33,866 bases of DNA from an uncultured bacterium. Lineage in GTDB: Bacteria; Acidobacteriota; Thermoanaerobaculia; Multivoradales; J023. The position numbers and the translations under genes were made by a program. Shown one piece after another: positions 9,517-21,147 of this stretch. The stretch lies in the NCBI GenBank assembly GCA_937948815.1, contig CALFAM010000344.1:1-33866 (forward strand), in the 5' to 3' direction. Under the pieces are notes generated by a model that made no database searches, had not been told where the DNA came from, and saw only the letters and a list, made by a program, of their open reading frames with translations. How positions within the stretch are numbered: position 1 is the stretch's first letter; each line of letters begins with the position of its first letter.

Positions 9517-9710
9517 GCTGTTCGCGTCCTGAAGCCTTGCAACGCTACCACGGGTGTGGGCGGCGGCGTGGCGACGCGTGCCGCGCTTGAACTCCTCGAT
9601 CGAGCGGTGCCGGTGCCGCCCTGGCGGTGTTTCGACCCGGCGCGCGGTTCCGAATCGGCGACCGGATGTGAGACGCTGCCGGAAACGCGAATCTTCGGAG
9701 GATGATGATC
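9517..9710. other. Divergent intergenic region
   Basis: Lies between the nucleotidyltransferase gene (minus) and the glycosidase gene (plus), so it must hold promoters for both, but no convincing -10/-35 pair is visible. GGAGG at 9697-9701 is the ribosome site of the glycosidase gene. Confidence 0.5.
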
Positions 9711-11546
9711 GTGGCCAAGATCAGTTGGACGATGAGATGGCTCGCAATCCTCTTGGCGGGGATGCTCGGCGCGGGAGCACTCGAAGCCGTGGCACTCGAG
9801 CCGTTGGATATCGAGATCGAAGGTGAGCTCGGCACCTTCGAAGCCGAGTGGAAGCTCGAGGGAGATGGCGCTCTCCGTACCTTGCGGATCGCGTTAGTCG
9901 CGCCGGAAGCAGCACCGCCGCCGCGCATCCAGGTCACGTGGCGCGTGCCGTCGATCGACGTCGCGGGCTACTGGCACCCCGCCATCGCGATCGACAAGGC
10001 CAACTACTACCGCAACCGCGTGGAGTCGCGCGCTGCCCGAAATGCGCCCGTGGTGGCCTTGTTGAGTGCCGCAGACCGCAACCGTATGACAGTGGCCGTA
10101 TCGGATGCTCTGCGCAAGGTTTCCGTCGGTTCGTACGTCAAGGAAGAAGATGCGCATTTTCATTTCTATGTCGAGCTATTCGCGGAGCCCGAGCCAGCTC
10201 TCGAACGCTATGAAGTGTCGGTGCGCATCGATGGGCGGGACATTCGCTACGAACAGGCCCTCGCCGACGTTGCGGCGTGGTGGGCACGGCAGGACGGATA
10301 CCTGCCGGCTCCGGTGCCGGCCGCGGCCCGAGAACCGATGGTTTCGACCTGGTACAGCTTCCATCAGAACCTCGATCGTGACGAGCTCATGGCGGAGCTC
10401 CGGCTGGCCAAGCCGCTGGGCTACGAGGCCGTGATCGTGGACGACGGCTGGCAGACTCTCGACGGCAACCGGGGCTATGCGTACACCGGAGACTGGAAAC
10501 CAGAGCGGCTCACCGACATGCGGGCCCTGGTCGACGAAGTCCATGCCCTCGGCATGAAGTTTCTGCTGTGGTACTCGCTACCGTTCGTCGGCGAAAAAGC
10601 CGAGAGCTTTGCCCGCTTCGAGGGCAAATACCTTCGTTACTGGGAAAGTCAGGGGACCTATGTGCTCGACCCCCGGTATCCCGAGGTACGCGAAGCCTTG
10701 ATCGAGACGTATGAGAAGGCTCTGGTGGACTGGGATCTCGACGGCTTCAAGCTCGACTTCATCGACCGCTTCATGCCCACCGAGGACACCGAGCTGACCG
10801 CAGCGGACGGCCGAGACTATGCGTCGGTCGATGAGGCCGTCGATCGTCTGATGACCGACATCATGGCGCGCCTACGTCGACTCCGTCCCGCTGTCATGAT
10901 CGAGTTTCGGCAGCGCTACATCGGTCCGCTGATGCGCAAGTACGGCAACATGTTCCGCGCGGTCGACTGTCCGAACAACGCGGTCGCCAACCGCGTCGAG
11001 ACGACCGACTTGCGGCTCCTCTCGGGCACGACCGCGGTGCATTCGGACATGCTCATGTGGCATCCGGACGAGCCCGTTGAACAGGCAGCACAGCAGATGC
11101 TCAATGTGCTCTTCAGCGTGCCGCAACTCTCCGTCAAGCTCGCCCAGGTTCCTGAAGATCACCGCGCTATGGTGGCCTTCTGGACGGGCTACTGGCGGGC
11201 CAATCGTGAGGTTTTGCTCGACGGCACCTTCCGGGCGACCCGGCCGGCCGCGCTCTATCCCATCCTGCGGGCCGAAGCGGCGGACAAGACAATCGTCGGT
11301 CTCTACGAGCCCATGGTGATCGATATCGATCGCGACACGGCCTTCGATGTGGTGAACGCAACGCCGTCGGACGCCATCGTGCTCCGGATCGCTGCGGACC
11401 TTGGCCATCGGATCGTGCGGGTGCGCGATACAGCTGGCAAGCTGGTGACGGAGGAGAAGGTCGATCTGCGTGCAGGCTTGCGAGAAGTCGCGGTGCCGCC
11501 ATCCGGGTTGGTCGAGGTGTCGTCGGCTACGGCCGCCAGGCGTTGA
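9711..11546 (+). CDS. Secreted alpha-galactosidase-like glycoside hydrolase (GH36/clan D type)
   Basis: About 611 residues with an N-terminal signal peptide (MRWLAILLAGMLGAGALEAVA). In numbering from the first ATG at 9702, a beta-rich domain covers about 33-185. A (beta/alpha)8 catalytic domain follows, with VSTWYSFHQN (215-223), VIVDDGWQ (244-251), KFLLWYSLPF (286-295) and nucleophile Asp352 in DGFKLDFIDRF. The probable acid/base Asp422 is in RAVDCPNN. These are hallmarks of GH36/clan D alpha-galactosidases. A C-terminal beta domain ends the protein. GGAGG at 9697-9701 abuts ATG 9702 but sits 9 bases before GTG 9711, so GTG 9711 is preferred; ATGs at 9702 and 9705 are in frame. It would act on alpha-linked galactosides or related glycans outside the cytoplasm. 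The exact sugar is uncertain because clan D specificity drifts. Confidence 0.85.
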   Translation: MAKISWTMRWLAILLAGMLGAGALEAVALEPLDIEIEGELGTFEAEWKLEGDGALRTLRIALVAPEAAPPPRIQVTWRVPSIDVAGYWHPAIAIDKANYYRNRVESRAARNAPVVALLSAADRNRMTVAVSDALRKVSVGSYVKEEDAHFHFYVELFAEPEPALERYEVSVRIDGRDIRYEQALADVAAWWARQDGYLPAPVPAAAREPMVSTWYSFHQNLDRDELMAELRLAKPLGYEAVIVDDGWQTLDGNRGYAYTGDWKPERLTDMRALVDEVHALGMKFLLWYSLPFVGEKAESFARFEGKYLRYWESQGTYVLDPRYPEVREALIETYEKALVDWDLDGFKLDFIDRFMPTEDTELTAADGRDYASVDEAVDRLMTDIMARLRRLRPAVMIEFRQRYIGPLMRKYGNMFRAVDCPNNAVANRVETTDLRLLSGTTAVHSDMLMWHPDEPVEQAAQQMLNVLFSVPQLSVKLAQVPEDHRAMVAFWTGYWRANREVLLDGTFRATRPAALYPILRAEAADKTIVGLYEPMVIDIDRDTAFDVVNATPSDAIVLRIAADLGHRIVRVRDTAGKLVTEEKVDLRAGLREVAVPPSGLVEVSSATAARR

Positions 11547-11703: not shown

Positions 11704-12381
11704 ATGAAACGACGTTCATTGTGGTATGCCGTCCTGGGCTTGGCTGCGGTCATGCTGTGGGGCTTGACGTTGATCCCGGCGGTCGGCGCGCAAGAAGCGC
11801 GTGCCGTCAGCGAAGCGCCCGACGAATTCGAGGAGATCGAGCGTCGGCCGGGCGAGGGCGAGCGCTGCATCGTCTGCCGCACGCGAGCGAATGGGGATGA
11901 GGTGGTCGAGATTCGATACAAAGGCCGCACATTCCATGTCAAGTCCATGATGTTCGAGGAGTTCGCGCAATCGCCGGATGTGTTCTTTCGCGACTTGCAA
12001 GCGCGCGGTGCCCTCTTCGACGAGCGCGCCATGGAAAAGCAGCGCTATTCCACGCTGTGGCTTTGGTTCGGTGTCTACGTGCTGCTCGGTCTGGTGTGTG
12101 CAGCGGTGTGCGGCGCGCTGGCGGTCGGCAGAGGGTTAGCTCCCATTCCATGGTTCTTCGCCGGTTTGGCCGGCAACGTCGCCGCCCTCTTCGTGCTTTT
12201 CGTGACCGGCAAACGCTCTCCAGATGCGCCGACATCTTCGAGGCTGACCAAGATTCCGACTACCCATGCGCCGGTTGCCTGCGGTCAGTGTTCCGCAGCC
12301 AACCATCCTTCCGCCACGGCTTGTTCGGGCTGTGGAGAGACGCTTCGTCCCGCCTATGAGGCTGAAGCTGTCCGCGCCTGA
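11704..12381 (+). CDS. Small membrane protein with signal peptide, CxxC and C-terminal zinc ribbon
   Basis: The 225-residue protein is not a family I can name. An N-terminal hydrophobic segment ending VGAQ (residues 9-30) looks like a signal peptide. A short exported domain carries GERCIVCR (Cys55, Cys58) and YKGRTFHVKSMMFEEF, reminiscent of small metal-binding YHS/TRASH-type folds. Two transmembrane helices follow (about 117-139 and 148-168). The tail has two Cys pairs, CGQC (193-196) and CSGC (207-210), forming a zinc-ribbon pattern. GAGGGAG at 11690-11696 is a good ribosome site for ATG 11704. The redox fusion gene follows after 44 bases, suggesting one transcript and a role in metal or redox handling; that is inference. 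The 157 bases upstream show no clear promoter. Confidence 0.75.
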   Translation: MKRRSLWYAVLGLAAVMLWGLTLIPAVGAQEARAVSEAPDEFEEIERRPGEGERCIVCRTRANGDEVVEIRYKGRTFHVKSMMFEEFAQSPDVFFRDLQARGALFDERAMEKQRYSTLWLWFGVYVLLGLVCAAVCGALAVGRGLAPIPWFFAGLAGNVAALFVLFVTGKRSPDAPTSSRLTKIPTTHAPVACGQCSAANHPSATACSGCGETLRPAYEAEAVRA

Positions 12382-12425: not shown

Positions 12426-14753
12426 GTGCCGAAGATTCGCGAGGCGTTCGCCAAAGTCCTAGCCAGCGGCAGCCCTGCCGATCACCGTCGACCGGAGATC
12501 GGTAAGAACAACGAGTCCAACGTCAAAGGGCTCTACATCATCGGAGACCTGGCCGGTGCGCCGGTCATCAAGCTCGCCATGGCGCAAGGCGTGGAAGTCG
12601 TCGAGCACATTGTCGGCCTTCCAGACATGGCCAAGCGCTCGGACGATCCCGAGATGCTCGATGTTCTGATCGTCGGTGCGGGCGCCGCTGGGCTCAACGC
12701 CGCGCTTGCCGCGCAGGACAAGGGGCTGCGGCATGTCGTGCTCGAGAAAGAGGCGATCGCCAATACGATCGAAAACTTCCCCGAGGGCAAATGGGTCTAC
12801 TCGGAGCCGGACAGTCTGCCCGCCAAGGGCAAGCTGTGGCTCGATGGTGCCCGCAAGGAAGATCTGGTTGCGCGATGGCGCCAGATCGTGGCGGACAACG
12901 AGCTCGATGTGCGGGTGGAAGAACCGCTCCAAAGCCTCGAACGCCAGGCCGATGGAACCTTCACCGCCACCAGCTCCAAGGGTGCGTACCGCACGCGCAA
13001 GGTGATCTTGGCCACCGGGCAGCGTGGTAACCCCCGCAAGCTCGGGGTAGACGGCGAGACGCTCGAGCAGGTCTATCACCGGCTCTACTCGCCGAAGAAG
13101 TACAAGAACGAATCGATTGTCGTGGTCGGTGGCGGCAACAGCGCAGTCGAAGCAGCGCTGACGCTGTCGGAGCAGAACAAGGTATTGCTCGCCTACCGCG
13201 GCGGTGAGTTTGCTCGGGTCTTCAAGGACAACCGGGCACAGCTCGACCAGGCTGTCCGCGACGGCCGTATCGAGGTGTCATTCAACACGAACATTGCTCG
13301 TTTCGAGCCGGGGACGGCACATCTGCTGATCGATCGCGGTGGGCACCAGGAAGAGCGTGCTCACCCCATGGATCACGCTTTCGTCTTGATCGGTGCAGAG
13401 CTGCCGGTGGCCTTCCTACGCAAGCTCGGAATCGAGATGGAGAACGACTGGCGCGGTGGCCCTCTGTGGTCGATCGTGTTGACCGCGGCCACTTTCGGCG
13501 GCATGTGGTTGTTCGGGGCCGGCAAGGGCGGCACCGCACCGTGGGGCGCGCCACCCTGGGAGGGGCTGACAGCGTCCTTGGGAAGCGCCGCGATCTGGGT
13601 AGGTGGGCTGATCACACTGCTCGCTGGCGGTGGCCTGATCGTGCGCGGGCTCAAGGCACGGGATCGATGGTCGTGGCTCGGCCTCTCCTTCTTCGTTTGG
13701 TATTCGATCTATGGCATCAAGGTCGGTGCGGGAGAGGAGTTCTGGCCATACAAAGGCTGGGGCTACACCACCCTCTCGCTCGCCGGGCGATCATGGGCCT
13801 TCTGGTACACCGTTGCCTATACCGCCCTGATGACGATTTTCGGTGTCGAGGCGCTCAAGCGCTGGGGGCTCGATCGTCGTGATCGTTTCCAGATTCTGCG
13901 CTACACGAGCCTGCTGTCGTTTCAATGGCTGTTCTTCTTCATCATCCCCGAGTTCCTCTTCCAGTGGGCTGTGAAGTACCAGTGGGTAGGCGAGACCCTG
14001 GCAACCAATCCCCAATTCGCTGATCAGGCCTGGCGTTCGTACGGCTTGATCTATGCGTGGCCGCTGTTCTTCTACACCTGGCTCTATGACCCGCACCAGA
14101 TCTGGGTCGTGTGGGGCGTCTTGCTCACCTTTGGGCTGATTCCTGTGCTCGTTCTGTTCCACGGCAAGCGCTATTGCTCGTGGATCTGTGGCTGTGGAGG
14201 TTTGGCAGAGACCTTTGGCGACCGCTGGCGTCACCTGGCACCGAAAGGCAAGCTGTCCATCAAGCTCGAGCAGATGGGAATGGTCGTCTTGATCCTGGCC
14301 GGAGCGATCACCGTCATCCTTCTCGGCCGCGATACCTGGGGTCTGATGAAGACCGCGGACTGGGGCATCTACGGCTACCGCATCATCGTCGACGTCTGGC
14401 TGGTCGGAATCCTGCCGGTGACGGTCTACCCATTCATGGGTGGCAAGGTGTGGTGTCGGTTCTGGTGCCCGTTGGCCAAGATGATGCAGGTCCAGTCCAA
14501 GATCTTCTCCAAGCTCGGCTGGTCCCGCTTCCACATCGTGGCCAATGACAAGTGCATCGGCTGCAACGAGTGCTCACGCAACTGCCAGGTCGGCATCGAC
14601 GTCATGCAATACGCCTTGAAGCAAGAAGTGCTCGACAACGAGACCTCCTCCTGCATCGGCTGCGGCGTCTGCGTCACCGTCTGCCCCATGGATACCCTCT
14701 CCTTCGACAACAAGCCCGAAAAGAAGAAGAACCTTCTTCCGATCGTTCAGTAG
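12426..14753 (+). CDS. Flavoprotein-polyferredoxin membrane fusion (TrxR-like + NapH/NosR-like + 2x 4Fe-4S)
   Basis: The 775-residue protein has three parts. First, a pyridine-nucleotide/FAD module resembling thioredoxin reductase or YpdA: FAD motif VGAGAAG (83-89), VILATGQRGNP (193-203), NAD(P)H motif VVVGGGNSAVE (232-242). It has no cysteine and thus no redox-active CxxC. Residues 33-64 (VKGLYIIGDLAG onward) match the segment that normally ends such enzymes but here precede the first Rossmann motif. Second, about eight membrane helices (347-672) with Cys584, 588, 590 and Cys677, 681 (CRFWCP), like NapH/NosR membrane ferredoxins. Third, two 4Fe-4S motifs, Cys710/713/716/720 and Cys743/746/749/753. 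Start GTG 12426 has GGAGAGAAG upstream. The likely role is electron transfer between NAD(P)H/FAD and a membrane or periplasmic acceptor; the direction and partner are unknown. Confidence 0.85.
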   Translation: MPKIREAFAKVLASGSPADHRRPEIGKNNESNVKGLYIIGDLAGAPVIKLAMAQGVEVVEHIVGLPDMAKRSDDPEMLDVLIVGAGAAGLNAALAAQDKGLRHVVLEKEAIANTIENFPEGKWVYSEPDSLPAKGKLWLDGARKEDLVARWRQIVADNELDVRVEEPLQSLERQADGTFTATSSKGAYRTRKVILATGQRGNPRKLGVDGETLEQVYHRLYSPKKYKNESIVVVGGGNSAVEAALTLSEQNKVLLAYRGGEFARVFKDNRAQLDQAVRDGRIEVSFNTNIARFEPGTAHLLIDRGGHQEERAHPMDHAFVLIGAELPVAFLRKLGIEMENDWRGGPLWSIVLTAATFGGMWLFGAGKGGTAPWGAPPWEGLTASLGSAAIWVGGLITLLAGGGLIVRGLKARDRWSWLGLSFFVWYSIYGIKVGAGEEFWPYKGWGYTTLSLAGRSWAFWYTVAYTALMTIFGVEALKRWGLDRRDRFQILRYTSLLSFQWLFFFIIPEFLFQWAVKYQWVGETLATNPQFADQAWRSYGLIYAWPLFFYTWLYDPHQIWVVWGVLLTFGLIPVLVLFHGKRYCSWICGCGGLAETFGDRWRHLAPKGKLSIKLEQMGMVVLILAGAITVILLGRDTWGLMKTADWGIYGYRIIVDVWLVGILPVTVYPFMGGKVWCRFWCPLAKMMQVQSKIFSKLGWSRFHIVANDKCIGCNECSRNCQVGIDVMQYALKQEVLDNETSSCIGCGVCVTVCPMDTLSFDNKPEKKKNLLPIVQ

Positions 14754-14994: not shown

Positions 14995-15079
14995 ATGCGT
15001 GTGATGCGCGCTGGCAGGAAATCGTGTGTTTGTCGTCGTTCACGCTCGAACGCTGATGACTGAACGAGGAGAAGATCCG

Positions 15080-16642
15080 ATGACCCGATTCCATTTCCTT
15101 CCCGTCGCCTTGCTTTGTTTGCTGACATTTCTGCTCGTCCCGGCGGCAGAAGCCGCGCCGACGTTTCCGACCAACTGTGGGATCTATCCCAACGACTGCG
15201 CGGGTGTCGCGCTCGCTTCGCGTTACGCCACGCGTGGGCTGAGCGACAATCCACGCCTTTTCAATGCGGCGATTCATCCGCCCGAGGTGCAGATGTTCCG
15301 GGTGACCATGGACCTGAACGCCTATCCGAATGCCGTGTGCAATGACGGCTCTCCGGCGGTGTTCTACTTCGCGCCGGCGCCGATCAACTCGATGAACGCG
15401 GACAAGTGGGTGGTTCAGCTCGAGGGCGGCGGCGGCTGTCTCGATGCGGTCGACGAAGCCGGCCTTCATCAAGATTGCATGGACCGGTGGACCGGCCGCG
15501 GCCCGGACTTGCTCGACTTTCCGCGCAAGATGTCGACCGATCTCGATCGCAACGGTGTCACCGACCTGGCCTTTCTGCCCTTCGAAGGGCGAATCCCCGG
15601 CCTGTTGGGCGTCAATACGGTGGTGACGGATCCGACCCAGAATGGCGGCGGCGATGCCTGGAATCGCATCTTCATCAACTACTGCTCGTCCGACCTTTGG
15701 CAAGGGCAAAGTGGCTCCGTCATGCTGGATGGCGGTGAGTGGACCAGCCCGGCGGGGTTCGCGGTTCCGTACGAGCCTCTCGATTCCGCCTTCTTCAACG
15801 GCCATCTCGTGCTCGACAGCGTGCTCGATGCGGTTTCTGCAGGCGTCTGGAGCGACGATCAGGAGCACCGAATCCGTCTCGACGCGGCACCAGAGAAGCT
15901 CTTGTTGGTCGGTGAGTCGGCCGGTGGTGGCGGCGTGAATGCCAACCTCGACTTCGTGGCTGGCAAAGCCGGATGGGGCGCCGATCTGGCCGGGAACGAT
16001 CGCGGCATCACCCTGGGTGTTTCGGGCGCTACGACCCGGCCGCCGCTCGCCTACGATGATTCGACGATCGCCTGGTACACCGGGCCGGTGACCGTCCAGG
16101 AGTGGGACTTCGGCCTCGTGCCACCGGCGCTGGTCGACGTCGACCTCGATGGCAACGGCGTGATCGATACCGATGCGCAGGAATCGGGCGCGCCGCTGCG
16201 ACGCCCGCTCTATGAAAATGTGATCAATGCTTTCGTCGACCAGTCATGCCTGGCGGCCAACACCGATCCGCTGGCGGCCGATCCGGGTCAGCGCCACTGG
16301 CTGTGCTACCGCAGCGCGCCGCTCTATGAAGATGGGCACATCACCACGCCGATTCTGGTGAAGCAGGATCTCGGAGACCCCCTCGTGAGTGCTGGCATCC
16401 CCGCATTCCCGGACGGCATCCGCACCACGATGGGGAGCCTGCCGGGGAACTTCGCCTACTTTGGCCCGCACTGCAACCATCACGAAACCCTTTCGCATGG
16501 TCAGCGATTCAAGCGTGATCGCGTGATCGACGCGGCGGGACGCGTGGTTTCGTACCACACGGCAATCGCAGAGTTCGTGGCGGGTGCCTATGTGTCGATT
16601 TATTTCGAGCCGGGCGTGACCACCCGGAACTGCGCCCCGTAG
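15080..16642 (+). CDS. Secreted pectinacetylesterase/Notum-like hydrolase
   Basis: The 520-residue protein has a signal peptide (residues 1-26, LLCLLTFLLVPAAEA). Motifs typical of the PAE/Notum alpha/beta-hydrolase family are present in order: KWVVQLEGGGGC (109-120), IFINYCSSDLWQG (197-209) and nucleophile Ser280 in LLVGESAGGGGVNAN. An acidic residue candidate lies at Asp430-Asp433 (KQDLGDP) and the catalytic-His candidates are in CNHHE (His467/468). Two Asp/Asn-rich stretches, DLDRNGVTD (154-162) and DVDLDGNGVID (353-363), look like calcium-binding loops. Many paired cysteines fit an exported, disulfide-bonded protein. Start ATG 15080 is preferred over the longer frame from 15026 because GAGGAGAAG precedes it and the signal peptide begins there. 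It probably removes acyl esters from a polysaccharide or glycoconjugate; the substrate is not known. Confidence 0.85.
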   Translation: MTRFHFLPVALLCLLTFLLVPAAEAAPTFPTNCGIYPNDCAGVALASRYATRGLSDNPRLFNAAIHPPEVQMFRVTMDLNAYPNAVCNDGSPAVFYFAPAPINSMNADKWVVQLEGGGGCLDAVDEAGLHQDCMDRWTGRGPDLLDFPRKMSTDLDRNGVTDLAFLPFEGRIPGLLGVNTVVTDPTQNGGGDAWNRIFINYCSSDLWQGQSGSVMLDGGEWTSPAGFAVPYEPLDSAFFNGHLVLDSVLDAVSAGVWSDDQEHRIRLDAAPEKLLLVGESAGGGGVNANLDFVAGKAGWGADLAGNDRGITLGVSGATTRPPLAYDDSTIAWYTGPVTVQEWDFGLVPPALVDVDLDGNGVIDTDAQESGAPLRRPLYENVINAFVDQSCLAANTDPLAADPGQRHWLCYRSAPLYEDGHITTPILVKQDLGDPLVSAGIPAFPDGIRTTMGSLPGNFAYFGPHCNHHETLSHGQRFKRDRVIDAAGRVVSYHTAIAEFVAGAYVSIYFEPGVTTRNCAP

Positions 16643-16651
16643 CCCAGTCGC

Positions 16652-17788
16652 TCAGCGGTCGACGAGGAACGCGTCGATTGCTCGCGCGATCCGGACGCCG
16701 GCCCGGCCATCCCACAGGTCGGGTCGGCGTCCTGCCTTGTACTGGCCGGCGAGAATGGCATCGACATGCAGGAGCAGCGCGTCCTCGATGCCGTCGCCGC
16801 CCACCGGACCGATCAAGGCGTTGGTGCCTTCGTCGATGGTGATCGGTCGTTCGGTGTTGGCGCGCAGGGTGAGGCAAGGGACGCCGAGCACGGTGGTCTC
16901 TTCCTGAATGCCGCCGGAATCCGTGATCACGACGCCGGCAGTTGCTTGGAGCGAAAGGAATTCTCGGTAGCCGAAGGGCTCGGAGACGTGAACGCCGGAG
17001 GCTTCGGCTAGCTTCGACCACATGCCGTGACGTTCCAACCGCTGCCGGGTTCGGGGATGCGTCGGCAGGATGACCGGCAACTTGCCAGCGACCGCCGTGA
17101 CCAGGTCGACCAACGCGGCCAGGGCCTTTCCGTCGTCGACGTTGGCGGGCCGGTGAACGGTCCAGAGCGCGTAGCTTCCGGCATCGAATCCCATCTTGCG
17201 TGCCTGCTCGCAGGCTCGCGCTTCGGCAAGCTGGCGCTCGAGGGCGTCGATCATCACGTTGCCAACCAGCGCGATGGTGTGCGCGGGGCGTCCTTCCTGG
17301 CGTAGGTTGACCACGCCGCTCGGCTCGCTGACCAGCAGCAACTCGCAAATCGCGTCGGTGAGGACGCGATTGATTTCTTCGGGCATTGTGCGGTCGAAGC
17401 TGCGCAGACCCGCTTCGACGTGAATCGCAGGAATCCCCAGCTTCACCGAGGCCAGTGCACAAGCGACGGTCGAGTTGACGTCCCCCACCACGACGGTGGC
17501 AGCCGGACGCGGCTCGGCCTCGAGGAGCCAGGCTTCGAACCGTTCGAGCACGCGCGCCGTCTGGGCGCCGTGGCTGCCCGAGCCGACATCGAGATGGACG
17601 TCCGGAGTGGGCAGGCCGAGTTGGTCGAAGAAGCTGCCGCTCATCGCCTGGTCGTAGTGCTGGCCGGTGTGGATCAGCACGGGGCGTAGCGACGATGCGA
17701 TTTCGGCGAGGCCGGCGAGCACGGATGCCATCTTCGGAAAGTTCGGGCGCGCGCCGACCACGCAGGCGACAGTTTGCTGTTCGGGCAT
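16652..17788 (-). CDS. wecB: UDP-N-acetylglucosamine 2-epimerase (non-hydrolysing)
   Basis: Interconverts UDP-GlcNAc and UDP-ManNAc, supplying a precursor for capsule or O-antigen sugars. The 378-residue length is normal. Family motifs: VVGARPNFPKM (10-20), IHTGQHYDQAMS (39-50), VVGDVNSTVACALA, IHVEAGLRSFDRTMPEEINR, WTVHRPANVD and ITDSGGIQEE. The open frame continues upstream to 18013, but that part lies inside the methyltransferase gene in another frame; ATG 17788 starts the fold. It is the last gene of the minus-strand polysaccharide operon, 65 bases after the methyltransferase gene, and ends 9 bases from the convergent hydrolase gene. No dehydrogenase (wecC-like) is in the window. Confidence 0.94.
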   Translation of the reverse strand: MPEQQTVACVVGARPNFPKMASVLAGLAEIASSLRPVLIHTGQHYDQAMSGSFFDQLGLPTPDVHLDVGSGSHGAQTARVLERFEAWLLEAEPRPAATVVVGDVNSTVACALASVKLGIPAIHVEAGLRSFDRTMPEEINRVLTDAICELLLVSEPSGVVNLRQEGRPAHTIALVGNVMIDALERQLAEARACEQARKMGFDAGSYALWTVHRPANVDDGKALAALVDLVTAVAGKLPVILPTHPRTRQRLERHGMWSKLAEASGVHVSEPFGYREFLSLQATAGVVITDSGGIQEETTVLGVPCLTLRANTERPITIDEGTNALIGPVGGDGIEDALLLHVDAILAGQYKAGRRPDLWDGRAGVRIARAIDAFLVDR

Positions 17789-17853
17789 GTGCTGGATGCT
17801 ACCGCGTCGGTGTCGGCACCGCTTGCGCGCTTCTCGGGACACGTTTGCCCGTG

Positions 17854-18591
17854 CTAGATGGAGGGATGCCCGTCGTGGGGGCGGATGACGGCGATGTCGT
17901 GGGTGGCGAAGAGCGTCAGACGGTCGAGCAGGCCGGCGACGGCGCGTAGACGTGGCACCAGGAGGCGCGCGAGGGGCGGTGCGAGGGTGGTGCGACGGAC
18001 CATGATCTCGCAACGGGGAAACAACCCGTGAAGCTCCCGCCGACGCACACCGCGAACCTGACGGTTTCGTGGGTTGTCGACCCGAAAGTCGTACCAGAGA
18101 ATCGCGCCGTCAGCGCGAACCACACGCATCATCTCAGCGGCGATTGCCGTGCGCAGCGCGGGATCGAGAATCGATGTCATCACGGTCGACTGCAAGACCA
18201 GGTCGAAGCAACCGTCCGTCCAGGGAAGCCGCGAGGCGTCGGCGGTGATTGCCGCCGCATCCGGGGTAGACGCTCGTGCCTGGCGTAGGCGGCCGAGGTC
18301 GAGATCGATCCCCGTGAGGTCGTTCGGCCGGATCCCGAGTTGGGCGAAGTGCGCAAGCCAGCGTCCGCTGCCGCAGCCGACTTCGAGCAGCCGTTTGCCT
18401 GCCAGCGGCGCGAGCCCAGCGACCTCCAGGACCTGGTCGAGTGCGTGATTTTGGCTGTCGTGCAGGAACCGGTGGGCCGGGTTCGCCAGGCTGTAGCGGT
18501 CCGCGGGGACGTCCTGCTGACGTCGAGCGTATTCGGCCCGAACGCGTGCAAGCTCGCGCTGACGAACGGACTCGAGGCTCTCGCGCGTCAT
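17854..18591 (-). CDS. Class I SAM-dependent methyltransferase
   Basis: The 245-residue protein has the SAM-binding motif LLEVGCGSGRWL (68-79), the acidic strand-2 motif LTGIDLDLGRL, and the motif ITADASRLPW that ends strand 3. It belongs to the Methyltransf_11-like group. Its start overlaps the stop of the SGNH gene by ATGA (18588-18591), which indicates translational coupling. Within a polysaccharide operon it may O-methylate a sugar or the chain end. The basic C-terminal region (RNRQVRGVRRRELHGLF) could bind an anionic glycan or the membrane; this is inference. The acceptor cannot be told from sequence. Confidence 0.88.
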   Translation of the reverse strand: MTRESLESVRQRELARVRAEYARRQQDVPADRYSLANPAHRFLHDSQNHALDQVLEVAGLAPLAGKRLLEVGCGSGRWLAHFAQLGIRPNDLTGIDLDLGRLRQARASTPDAAAITADASRLPWTDGCFDLVLQSTVMTSILDPALRTAIAAEMMRVVRADGAILWYDFRVDNPRNRQVRGVRRRELHGLFPRCEIMVRRTTLAPPLARLLVPRLRAVAGLLDRLTLFATHDIAVIRPHDGHPSI

Positions 18592-19868
18592 TCGGTGTCA
18601 CTGCCGGAAGCTCCTGGCAGCGTCGTTCGCGCGGAAGCTTCGCTTTGCGGCAGGAGCGTGCTGACAGGCGTCTGCAGTTGCTCGCGAACCCAGGGCAGGA
18701 TCGTCTCGGCCACCACCCGATGACCGGCAGGTGCCAGGTGCGTGTCGACGTTGCCGTAGAGCGCCGGCCGCTGCCCGGCCTCGATGGCCGCGCGATGGGC
18801 CTGGCGCAGGCTCGGCAGCGTGTCGATCCAGGTCAGACCTGCTGCGTCCAGGGTGGGGCCGAGCAGCTCCGAGGGCAGGGCGAGATCGTAGTCCTCGGGC
18901 GCGAGCCCCGAGGACGCGGCGTAGCGTGCACCGATGGCCGTGTCGACCTGGTAGATCCCGGGCAGCAGCACCACCAGCATGGGCAGGCCCTTCTCCGTGG
19001 TCAGGGATTGGATGTCGGTCAAGACTTCGGCGGTCAGTCCCCAAGGGGGCGAGCCGTCGGCCGTGATGCCGTTGCGTGCGCGAATGAGCGTGGCCGGAAA
19101 GTGGTGGGCTGACAGGCCGACGCGCATGAGCAAGAACTTTGCGCGGTTCTTGAGCAGGGTGAACAGGTGTGAACGACGCTCGAGGGCATTGTTGATTGGA
19201 TAGGCGATGGCATCGACCAGCTCGCGCTTGGAAAGCGCGCGCGGCAGACGCAGGCGTCGCGGCGCGGCGACCTGGTTGGGGTGGTAGGTGTCATATCGCT
19301 GGTAAACGCGATCGTTGCCGACAAAGAGGAATACGATCACCGCGTCGTAGGCGGCCGAAGCGCCGCGTCCGAGCTCGACCCTGGCGAGCTCGCTGCGTGC
19401 TTCGAGCAGGTATTGCTCCGGGCCCCAGCCGCCGACGCCGGTGTTGATCACGTCGACCGGGCGGCCCATCTCCGTGCGAAGCAGTGCCATGAGCTGAGCC
19501 GTGGTGGTGTCCTCGTAGCCGACCTGGATGGCTTCCAGGAAGGAATCGCCGAGGGCGAGCACCCGAAGGGGCTGCTTGGTGTCGCGCGGGCCTGGCGGAG
19601 TGTGCTCGCTGATTCGGTGTCCACGGTCATCGGTTCGCCAGCGCACGTCACCTTCGCCCACGTTGATCGTGGTGTCGGCGTCGGGAGCATGGCGCCACCC
19701 GAAGATCTCGGCCGGCTGCCAGATGTCGGGCCGGAGCGTGATGAGCTGCTGGGGGACGAGCAGTCGAACGCCCAGCTCGAGGACCAACAGTGTGAACGCC
19801 GTGGAGCACGTGGCCAGCGCCAAGCCGTGGAAGATGCGTCCCGGAAAGATTTTGGGTAGGCGTTTCAT
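18588..19868 (-). CDS. Membrane-anchored SGNH/GDSL hydrolase-like protein
   Basis: The 426-residue protein has one N-terminal hydrophobic segment (about 14-38), then an SGNH fold: block I LALGDSF with Ser109, block II glycine in NTGVGGWG (142-149), block III FVGNDRVY with Asn185, and the C-terminal pair in DTHLAPAGH. All four block residues are visible, so activity is plausible. Single-helix anchored SGNH proteins in polysaccharide loci, such as AlgJ/AlgX-type proteins, often add or remove acetyl groups outside the membrane. Start ATG 19868 has GAGAAA just upstream and lies 13 bases after the stop of the GT4 gene. The downstream methyltransferase is coupled by ATGA. Confidence 0.86.
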   Translation of the reverse strand: MKRLPKIFPGRIFHGLALATCSTAFTLLVLELGVRLLVPQQLITLRPDIWQPAEIFGWRHAPDADTTINVGEGDVRWRTDDRGHRISEHTPPGPRDTKQPLRVLALGDSFLEAIQVGYEDTTTAQLMALLRTEMGRPVDVINTGVGGWGPEQYLLEARSELARVELGRGASAAYDAVIVFLFVGNDRVYQRYDTYHPNQVAAPRRLRLPRALSKRELVDAIAYPINNALERRSHLFTLLKNRAKFLLMRVGLSAHHFPATLIRARNGITADGSPPWGLTAEVLTDIQSLTTEKGLPMLVVLLPGIYQVDTAIGARYAASSGLAPEDYDLALPSELLGPTLDAAGLTWIDTLPSLRQAHRAAIEAGQRPALYGNVDTHLAPAGHRVVAETILPWVREQLQTPVSTLLPQSEASARTTLPGASGSDTE

Positions 19869-19881
19869 GTGGTTTCTCGGA

Positions 19882-21147
19882 TCATCCTACCGGCGCGGCC
19901 GATCCGTCCTCGGTCGGCGCTGCGACGAGTTGGCGTAGCAGGCCATCGAGCTCGGCGGCCACGGCAGCCCGGCTGTAGCGCGATTCGGCTTCCTGCCGGC
20001 CGGCAAGGCCGAGTCGCTGGCGGAGGGAGTGGTCTGTGGCCAGGCGTGTCCAGGCGTCGGTCAGAGCGTCCGCGCGTCCGGGTTCCACGGTGATCCCACA
20101 GGGAGCCCGGCCCACACGCTTGGCGGCCTCGCCCCCCGCGACCAACAAGATCGGCAGGCTCGCGGCCATGGCCTCGTAGATCTTGCTCGGCACGGCGCCG
20201 CGCAGGGTACGGCCCAGGCTGACCAGGGCGACATCGGCACAGGCGAGCAAGGCGGGCACGCGTTCCCGCGGCTGGGCGGGAATCAGCATGACGCGGTCGA
20301 TGCGCTCGGAATCGATGCGGGCGGCGAGATGATCCCGCATGGGGCCATCGCCGACCAGGACCAGGCGCCCGGGGACGTCCGCGGGCAGGGCGCGCACGGC
20401 GTCGAGCACCTCGTCGAGGCCCTGGGCGAGCCCGAGCAGGCCCGCGAAGAGGAAGATCGGGCCCGGCGCATTGCCGACCAACGCGCGGGCTTCGTCGTCC
20501 GCATGCTCGGGTCCAAAGCGACTCGGCTCGACACCATTGGTGATGACCCGTGTCATGTCCTTGGGTGTCACCAGCTCGGGAATGCGATCGGCGATGTCAG
20601 CGACGATTTCCTCGGACTGGCCGGTGACGGCATCACTGCGCCGATAGAGCCATTGCTCCAGCCCGCCGGCGAGGCGTGCTGGCAGACCGCGGGGGCTGAG
20701 CACACCCATCTCGACCGCCGAGCGAGGCCACAGATCGCTGATGTTGAAGACCCATGGGCAGCGGAAGCGACGCGCCAGGATCAGGCCGGCGAGCCCGGCG
20801 AACAAGGGTGGTGATTCGCACAGGATCACATCCGGGCGCGCGCACCGCATGCCATGAGCCGTGGCGGAAGCCGTGAAGGACAGGTAGGACGCCAGGCGAC
20901 GCACGAAACCTCGGTTCGACGGGTAGACCGGTACCCGTAGGGTCGCCATCCCGGCGATGGTCTCGCGTCGGGTGCGGAAGCGCGGATAGCCCGGAAAAAT
21001 GGCACCGGTCGGATAGTTGGGCAGCGCCGTCAGCACCTCGACCTGCCAGCCCAGCTCCAGCAGGCGAGCGCCGAGCTCGGAGAGGCGCGCCTGGGGGGCG
21101 CCCATCTCGGGCGGGAAGTAGGGCGTGACGATCAGCAGCTTGGCCAT
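19882..21147 (-). CDS. WbuB-like family 4 glycosyltransferase
   Basis: The 421-residue protein is a GT-B enzyme. The N-terminal part begins LLIVTPYFPPEMGAPQARL, typical of WbuB-like GT4 proteins. The C-terminal nucleotide-sugar domain has VITNGVEPSRF, LFAGLLGLAQGLDEVLDAV, LVGDGP and AVPSKIYEAMAASLPIL. Family relatives transfer amino-sugars such as N-acetylfucosamine onto lipid-linked intermediates, but the donor here is not determined. Only 6 bases separate it from the CapK-like gene upstream, and 13 bases from the SGNH gene downstream, so all are cotranscribed. It would act at the cytoplasmic face of the inner membrane. Confidence 0.9.
   Translation of the reverse strand: MAKLLIVTPYFPPEMGAPQARLSELGARLLELGWQVEVLTALPNYPTGAIFPGYPRFRTRRETIAGMATLRVPVYPSNRGFVRRLASYLSFTASATAHGMRCARPDVILCESPPLFAGLAGLILARRFRCPWVFNISDLWPRSAVEMGVLSPRGLPARLAGGLEQWLYRRSDAVTGQSEEIVADIADRIPELVTPKDMTRVITNGVEPSRFGPEHADDEARALVGNAPGPIFLFAGLLGLAQGLDEVLDAVRALPADVPGRLVLVGDGPMRDHLAARIDSERIDRVMLIPAQPRERVPALLACADVALVSLGRTLRGAVPSKIYEAMAASLPILLVAGGEAAKRVGRAPCGITVEPGRADALTDAWTRLATDHSLRQRLGLAGRQEAESRYSRAAVAAELDGLLRQLVAAPTEDGSAAPVG

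Follow-up and report, generated by a model that had tools for sequence, protein, structure and literature searches.

A circularly permuted thioredoxin reductase-type flavoprotein fused to a NapH-like membrane iron-sulphur module, a predicted NAD(P)H dehydrogenase

Results and discussion

The window, a stretch of 33,866 nucleotides from an uncultured bacterium of the Acidobacteriota, carries a gene for a protein in which a thioredoxin reductase (TrxR)-type flavin module is followed by a NapH-like membrane part (Table 1). Sequence comparisons confirm that the segment expected to close the FAD site precedes the first Rossmann motif, and the order of the module is therefore circularly permuted. 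The protein is probably a membrane-bound dehydrogenase of NAD(P)H, most likely NADPH, that would serve as an FAD/Fe-S conduit, probably to quinone. Neither a permuted TrxR-type flavoprotein nor this fusion is described in the literature searched, which left out preprints and most subscription journals, and the available part of a survey of NapH-like systems (PMC8238504) mentions no such fusion.

Table 1. Positions in the window of the fusion gene, its parts and its conserved upstream neighbour
Feature	Position	Strand	Basis or remark
Conserved upstream partner	11704..12381	+	signal/membrane protein: CxxC, two helices, four-Cys zinc-ribbon tail
Fusion-protein gene, complete	12426..14753	+	GTG start, 775 aa; orthologues begin at the equivalent residue
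Moved FAD-closing segment, residues 21-64 (RRP..NESNVKGLYIIGDLAGAPVIKLAMAQG.. helix)	12486..12617	+	homology, invariant glycines, AlphaFold
Variable linker, residues 65-76, old C-terminus to old N-terminus	12618..12653	+	entropy
FAD domain, N-terminal part (VGAGAAG), residues 77-225	12654..13100	+	Pyr_redox_3 1.1e-40, TIGR04018 1.8e-48
NAD(P)H domain, residues 226-316 (GGGNSAVEAA; YR258..R264)	13101..13373	+	family matches, alignment
Return strand and helix to FAD domain, residues 317-345; new C-terminal break after	13374..13460	+	
Eight predicted membrane helices, residues 346-671	13461..14438	+	family-averaged hydropathy and AlphaFold helices
CSWICGC (C584, C588, C590) after helix 6	14175..14195	+	conserved column block in alignment
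CRFWC(P) (C677, C681) after helix 8	14454..14468	+	alignment
Two [4Fe-4S] ferredoxin motifs (C710-720, C743-753)	14541..14696	+	Fer4_21 7.6e-10; napH_ TIGR02163 1.4e-13 over 574-761

The displaced FAD-closing segment

In the TrxR/YpdA fold the C-terminus supplies a strand, followed by a GD turn and a helix, that close the FAD site, and the domains of Bdr/YpdA and TrxR follow the order FADn - NAD(P) - FADc. This order is not kept in the window protein. As the preliminary description had read it, the FAD-like segment VKGLYIIGDLAG (residues 33-44) comes before the GxGxxG of the first Rossmann motif (84-89), and the membrane helices that it placed near residue 347 are predicted from about residue 346. 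Its reading that the chain goes into membrane helices after the NAD(P)H domain is corrected here: a piece of the FAD domain (about 317-345) is still found where the fold normally has it, and only the last strand-loop-helix has moved. Searches of Pfam and NCBIfam assign a Pyr_redox_3/YpdA-like module to residues 79-349 and a NapH-like two-cluster tail to residues 574-768.

Several comparisons identify the moved segment. In normal-order relatives (e.g. L027, L028 and L030) the counterpart of residues 11-66 is the C-terminal FAD segment, with 44-50% identity; the best match is 50% over 56 aa (E ~5e-12 in a database of five sequences, ~1e-9 when every ORF of the loci collected by that point was searched). 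Rotation of the query raises the BLAST score against normal-order relatives from 168 to 201 bits and lengthens the matches to TIGR04018 (YpdA) and TIGR01292 (TrxR), which then reach model positions 290/316 and 279/300, respectively. The gain is small against the PDB, where the local alignments of the best hits end before the moved segment. Among 87 aligned sequences the segment is about as conserved as the core (entropy 1.69 and 1.76 bits; 3.07 for the linker between them), with G40 and G44 invariant and position 41 always D or E (87/87 in each case).

A frameshift hiding a normal N-terminal domain upstream had been raised as an objection. It is excluded, because more than 50 full-length orthologues in many phyla begin at the same place and with the same segment. 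In a sample of 150 classified homologues, biased towards the query, 121 are permuted, 24 are normal and five are undecided.

The AlphaFold model of the full chain has a pTM of 0.79 and that of residues 1-345 a pTM of 0.83 (mean pLDDT 89; blocks 21-40 and 51-70 above 90). Residues 21-64 are mostly above 90, the loop at about 41-50 is near 72, and the segment forms a strand (36-39) and a helix (48-63). Packing of residues 33-64 on the FAD fold, as proposed in the preliminary description, is supported by the pairing of strand 36-39 with the core. Its partners must lie there, because the rest of residues 1-75 has only two isolated bridge residues; these contacts are read from DSSP and model confidence rather than from coordinates. 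Confidence is lower in the membrane half, with a pLDDT of about 40-60 in the ferredoxin tail. By Foldseek, which is bound to chain order and thus blind to the moved segment, the core fold is closest to bacillithiol disulfide reductase (Bdr) and TrxR-like ferredoxin/flavodoxin NADP+ reductases. Residues 346-725, which cover most of the membrane part and end before the second cluster motif, gave no PDB match up to E 0.1.

The N-terminal segment could also be the remnant of a truncated tandem flavoprotein, with an FAD site that is not completed or is completed in a neighbouring subunit. Duplication followed by truncation is a common route to permutation, and a single-chain model is blind to swapping between subunits. 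However, the segment is conserved like the core, with its invariant glycines, and in the model its strand pairs with core strands, which makes a remnant very improbable. We favour a site completed within the same chain.

Relationship to known flavoproteins and membrane iron-sulphur proteins

Both in sequence and in fold, the core is best matched by Bdr/YpdA (TIGR04018; PDB 7a76, 7a7b and 7apr), although the curated cut-off of TIGR04018 (339.9 bits) is not reached (165.0 bits in native order, 169.4 rotated). Bdr/YpdA is linear and soluble, whereas the window protein has its FADc segment at residues 21-64 and is predicted to be membrane-bound. Bdr/YpdA carries a cysteine in the first Rossmann loop. 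The corresponding residue is Ala88 in the window protein and A, S or G in 87/87 aligned sequences. Thioredoxin reductase has a redox-active CxxC in its flavin module; here all 13 cysteines lie at residue 584 or beyond, leaving the flavin module free of them. The preliminary description was right that the flavin part lacks cysteine, and its view that the protein is no classical disulfide reductase is supported. TrxR-like ferredoxin/flavodoxin NADP+ reductases (PDB 6gar and 3ab1) likewise have a TrxR-fold FAD/NADPH module and trade electrons with one-electron carriers (PMC10294844), but they have the normal order and a separate soluble ferredoxin or flavodoxin, whereas the window protein carries its Fe-S partner within its own chain, in the membrane.

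With NapH, NosR and RdhC (TIGR02163, PF12801) the window protein shares cysteine motifs placed after membrane helices. It also has two C-terminal [4Fe-4S] motifs (Fer4 family matches at 705-757), like NapH and NosR (PMC5928378, PMC8238504). Of the CxxxC(P) motifs named earlier, the second is a CX3CP (CRFWCP, 677-681) and the first a CX3CG (CSWIC-G-C, 584-588); NapH/NosR-type proteins have two CX3CP. The match to the NapH/MauN model TIGR02163 (50.9 bits over residues 574-761) misses its cut-off of 213 bits. Unlike the window protein, NapH, NosR and RdhC lack a cytoplasmic NAD(P)H flavoprotein, and the periplasmic FMN domain of NosR and RdhC is absent here. Similar in their working are MsrQ-like and NQR/RNF-like NAD(P)H-linked electron-transfer proteins (PMC8238504), in which a cytoplasmic NAD(P)H-oxidising domain is joined to a transmembrane electron path; their domains, a haem or NqrB membrane part and a PF00175 NAD domain, are unrelated to those of the window protein.

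Distribution and origin of the permuted architectures

A scan of genome contigs for relatives yielded 59 loci. Most of the full-length orthologues are 56-76% identical, and they fall under more than a dozen phylum-level names, taken from MAG records that can be wrong (Acidobacteriota, Planctomycetota, Calditrichota, KSB1, Dadabacteria, Ignavibacteria, Latescibacterota, Kapaibacterium, Gammaproteobacteria, Verrucomicrobia, Eisenbacteria, Spirochaetia, Gemmatimonadetes and others). Cultured carriers are Pseudoalteromonas sp. Bsw20308 (WP_007378779), where the match includes the membrane part, and Emticicia oligotrophica, where only the flavin module is matched. The Emticicia protein (WP_015031197, L157:5641-6963) is annotated merely as NAD(P)-binding protein, and its gene belongs to a run that includes ccsA and two genes of the cytochrome c3 family.

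Three permuted layouts were found. The flavin module leads into the membrane/NapH part in the window protein and in the divergent subfamilies B2 and B3, which are about 30-40% identical and include a paralogue in the window's own genome (C343). A second layout of about 450 aa has the order TM-ferredoxin-flavin module (e.g. L016), and a third joins the module to multihaem cytochromes, as FHA-cytochrome-ferredoxin-flavin (L126) or ferredoxin-flavin-cytochrome (L124) chains. For instance, L126:2872-6165 and L127:775-4098 encode single chains of ~1100 aa with FHA, a multihaem cytochrome region, ferredoxin and the permuted flavin module, and a 1588-aa ORF (L124:348-5111, minus strand) continues from ferredoxin and the permuted module into several regions of cytochrome c7/c3 type. 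Two irregular genes were also seen: a full gene is followed downstream by a 149-aa piece of another copy of the membrane/ferredoxin part (L076:9262-9708), and a gene in a record named Nitrospirae is apparently split into two ORFs of 216 and 111 aa (L092:5938-6832). The normal-order relatives continue from FADn-NAD-FADc into two cNMP domains and ferredoxin motifs (L027, L028, L030).

The core tree splits, with support 100, ordinary YpdA-like proteins from all permuted proteins and normal-order cNMP fusions taken together. It is compatible with a single origin of the permutation: a tree forcing all permuted proteins together fits slightly better, and a single origin is not rejected (p-AU 0.56). 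In our reading of the alignments, the Fe-S partner seems to be attached at the same loop of the broken chain in the two main permuted layouts. Because permutation leaves the new termini of the chain at a single loop, the iron-sulphur module is attached at that point.

Proposed electron path and genomic context

In the proposed mechanism a hydride from NAD(P)H would reduce FAD in the cytoplasmic flavin module, whose site would be completed by the strand-loop-helix moved from the usual end of the fold to its start. FAD would then release electrons singly to the pair of C-terminal [4Fe-4S] clusters, which would lie on this same side of the membrane; the eight predicted helices bring both ends of the membrane part to one side. 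From the clusters electrons would enter the NapH-like membrane part and most likely reach quinone, the acceptor proposed for NapH (PMC5928378, PMC8238504), or possibly another acceptor that the conserved membrane protein encoded upstream would handle. We infer cofactor binding, electron direction, NADPH preference and acceptor in this scheme. It counts against a conduit that the window protein has no haem or periplasmic FMN domain to explain electrons crossing the membrane. R258 and R264 are conserved in 81/87 and 77/87 aligned sequences, respectively, which fits a preference for NADPH and is weak evidence for it.

The gene neighbourhoods of relatives seem to point the same way. The order pgl-gnd-partner-fusion occurs at L161/L079, and partner-fusion-DUF547-polyphosphate glucokinase-tkt-gnd-zwf at L069. 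Divergent from a distant B3 relative lies gnd-zwf-opcA-like-pgl (L168; the opcA match is below its cut-off). Genes for tkt and of transaldolase/PGI type stand near the fusion gene of other relatives (L081, L089, L170), and PGI-type genes lie upstream in a group of Acidobacteriota (L046-L048, L052, L064, L087). PGI and transketolase themselves make no NADPH. Altogether, about 15 pentose-phosphate genes occur in about a dozen of 55 loci, some of them from closely related genomes, and loci within a lineage do not count as independent; our own estimate from gene density, rather than from a drawn control, predicts ~0.5-1 such gene for the ~520 kb of flanking DNA. The window locus has no pentose-phosphate gene (zwf, gnd, pgl, tkt or pgi) beside the fusion, and zwf was not found in the window's own genome (82% complete) nor in several order mates, indicating that NADPH supply by this pathway is not obligatory. 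The architecture and these neighbours of relatives together suggest the one-chain NAD(P)H-FAD-FeS-membrane conduit proposed in the preliminary description.

Other neighbours were also recorded. A DUF547-like gene occurs near membrane- and ferredoxin-type permuted flavoproteins (L069, L071, L072, L076, L077, L078, L093, L100, L113). In the window the flanks hold a melibiase-like gene (9702-11546, plus strand) and a pectinacetylesterase-like gene (15026-16642, plus strand), followed by a run of UDP-GlcNAc 2-epimerase-like, methyltransferase-like and glycosyltransferase-like genes (16652-21147, minus strand), assigned by reading alone.

Electrons might instead flow in reverse, from quinol or a periplasmic cytochrome through the clusters and FAD to reduce NAD(P)+. 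In sister architectures the module is found in one chain with multihaem cytochromes (L124, L126, L127), and the gene of the Emticicia relative adjoins two cytochrome c3 genes. However, this direction is uphill in energy from quinol unless a coupling device exists, and genes beside several membrane-type relatives encode NADPH-producing enzymes; we regard it as unlikely and retain NAD(P)H as the probable donor.

The upstream partner bears on the acceptor. It lies directly upstream of the fusion gene in nearly all close (B1) loci (59 in total, a few of them repeat copies of one locus) and was absent beside the distant subfamilies in the loci examined. Its CxxC is largely invariant, with the second cysteine present in 46 of 50 sequences, and in some relatives extra cysteines are reminiscent of a YHS-type metal site. 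CcoG is a related membrane Fe-S protein. The same fold could pass electrons to a metal ion, as a CcoG-like cupric or ferric reductase with the CxxC/zinc-ribbon partner handling the metal. Such a reading draws on CcoG, a cupric reductase (PMC8456105), and on the cysteines of the partner. Nevertheless, a Pfam search of the partner found only weak zinc ribbons and no other metal-site family, the distant subfamilies do without it in the loci examined, and no copper or iron genes are among the most frequent neighbour families. A metal acceptor thus appears improbable, and quinone remains the preferred one.

Conclusions

A very common flavoprotein fold occurs in naturally permuted form across many phyla, undescribed in the literature searched. 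The permutation has a possible structural reason, as the new termini at one loop are the attachment site of the Fe-S modules. The family suggests a direct, testable route from NADPH to the membrane. Tentatively, it may represent a widespread undescribed respiratory enzyme that channels NADPH straight into the membrane electron pool, with the oxidative pentose-phosphate pathway as the NADPH source in many hosts. Such an enzyme would be built on a permuted TrxR-type flavoprotein that arose a single time and afterwards gained ferredoxins, multihaem cytochromes and NapH-like membrane modules as fusion partners at the new break.
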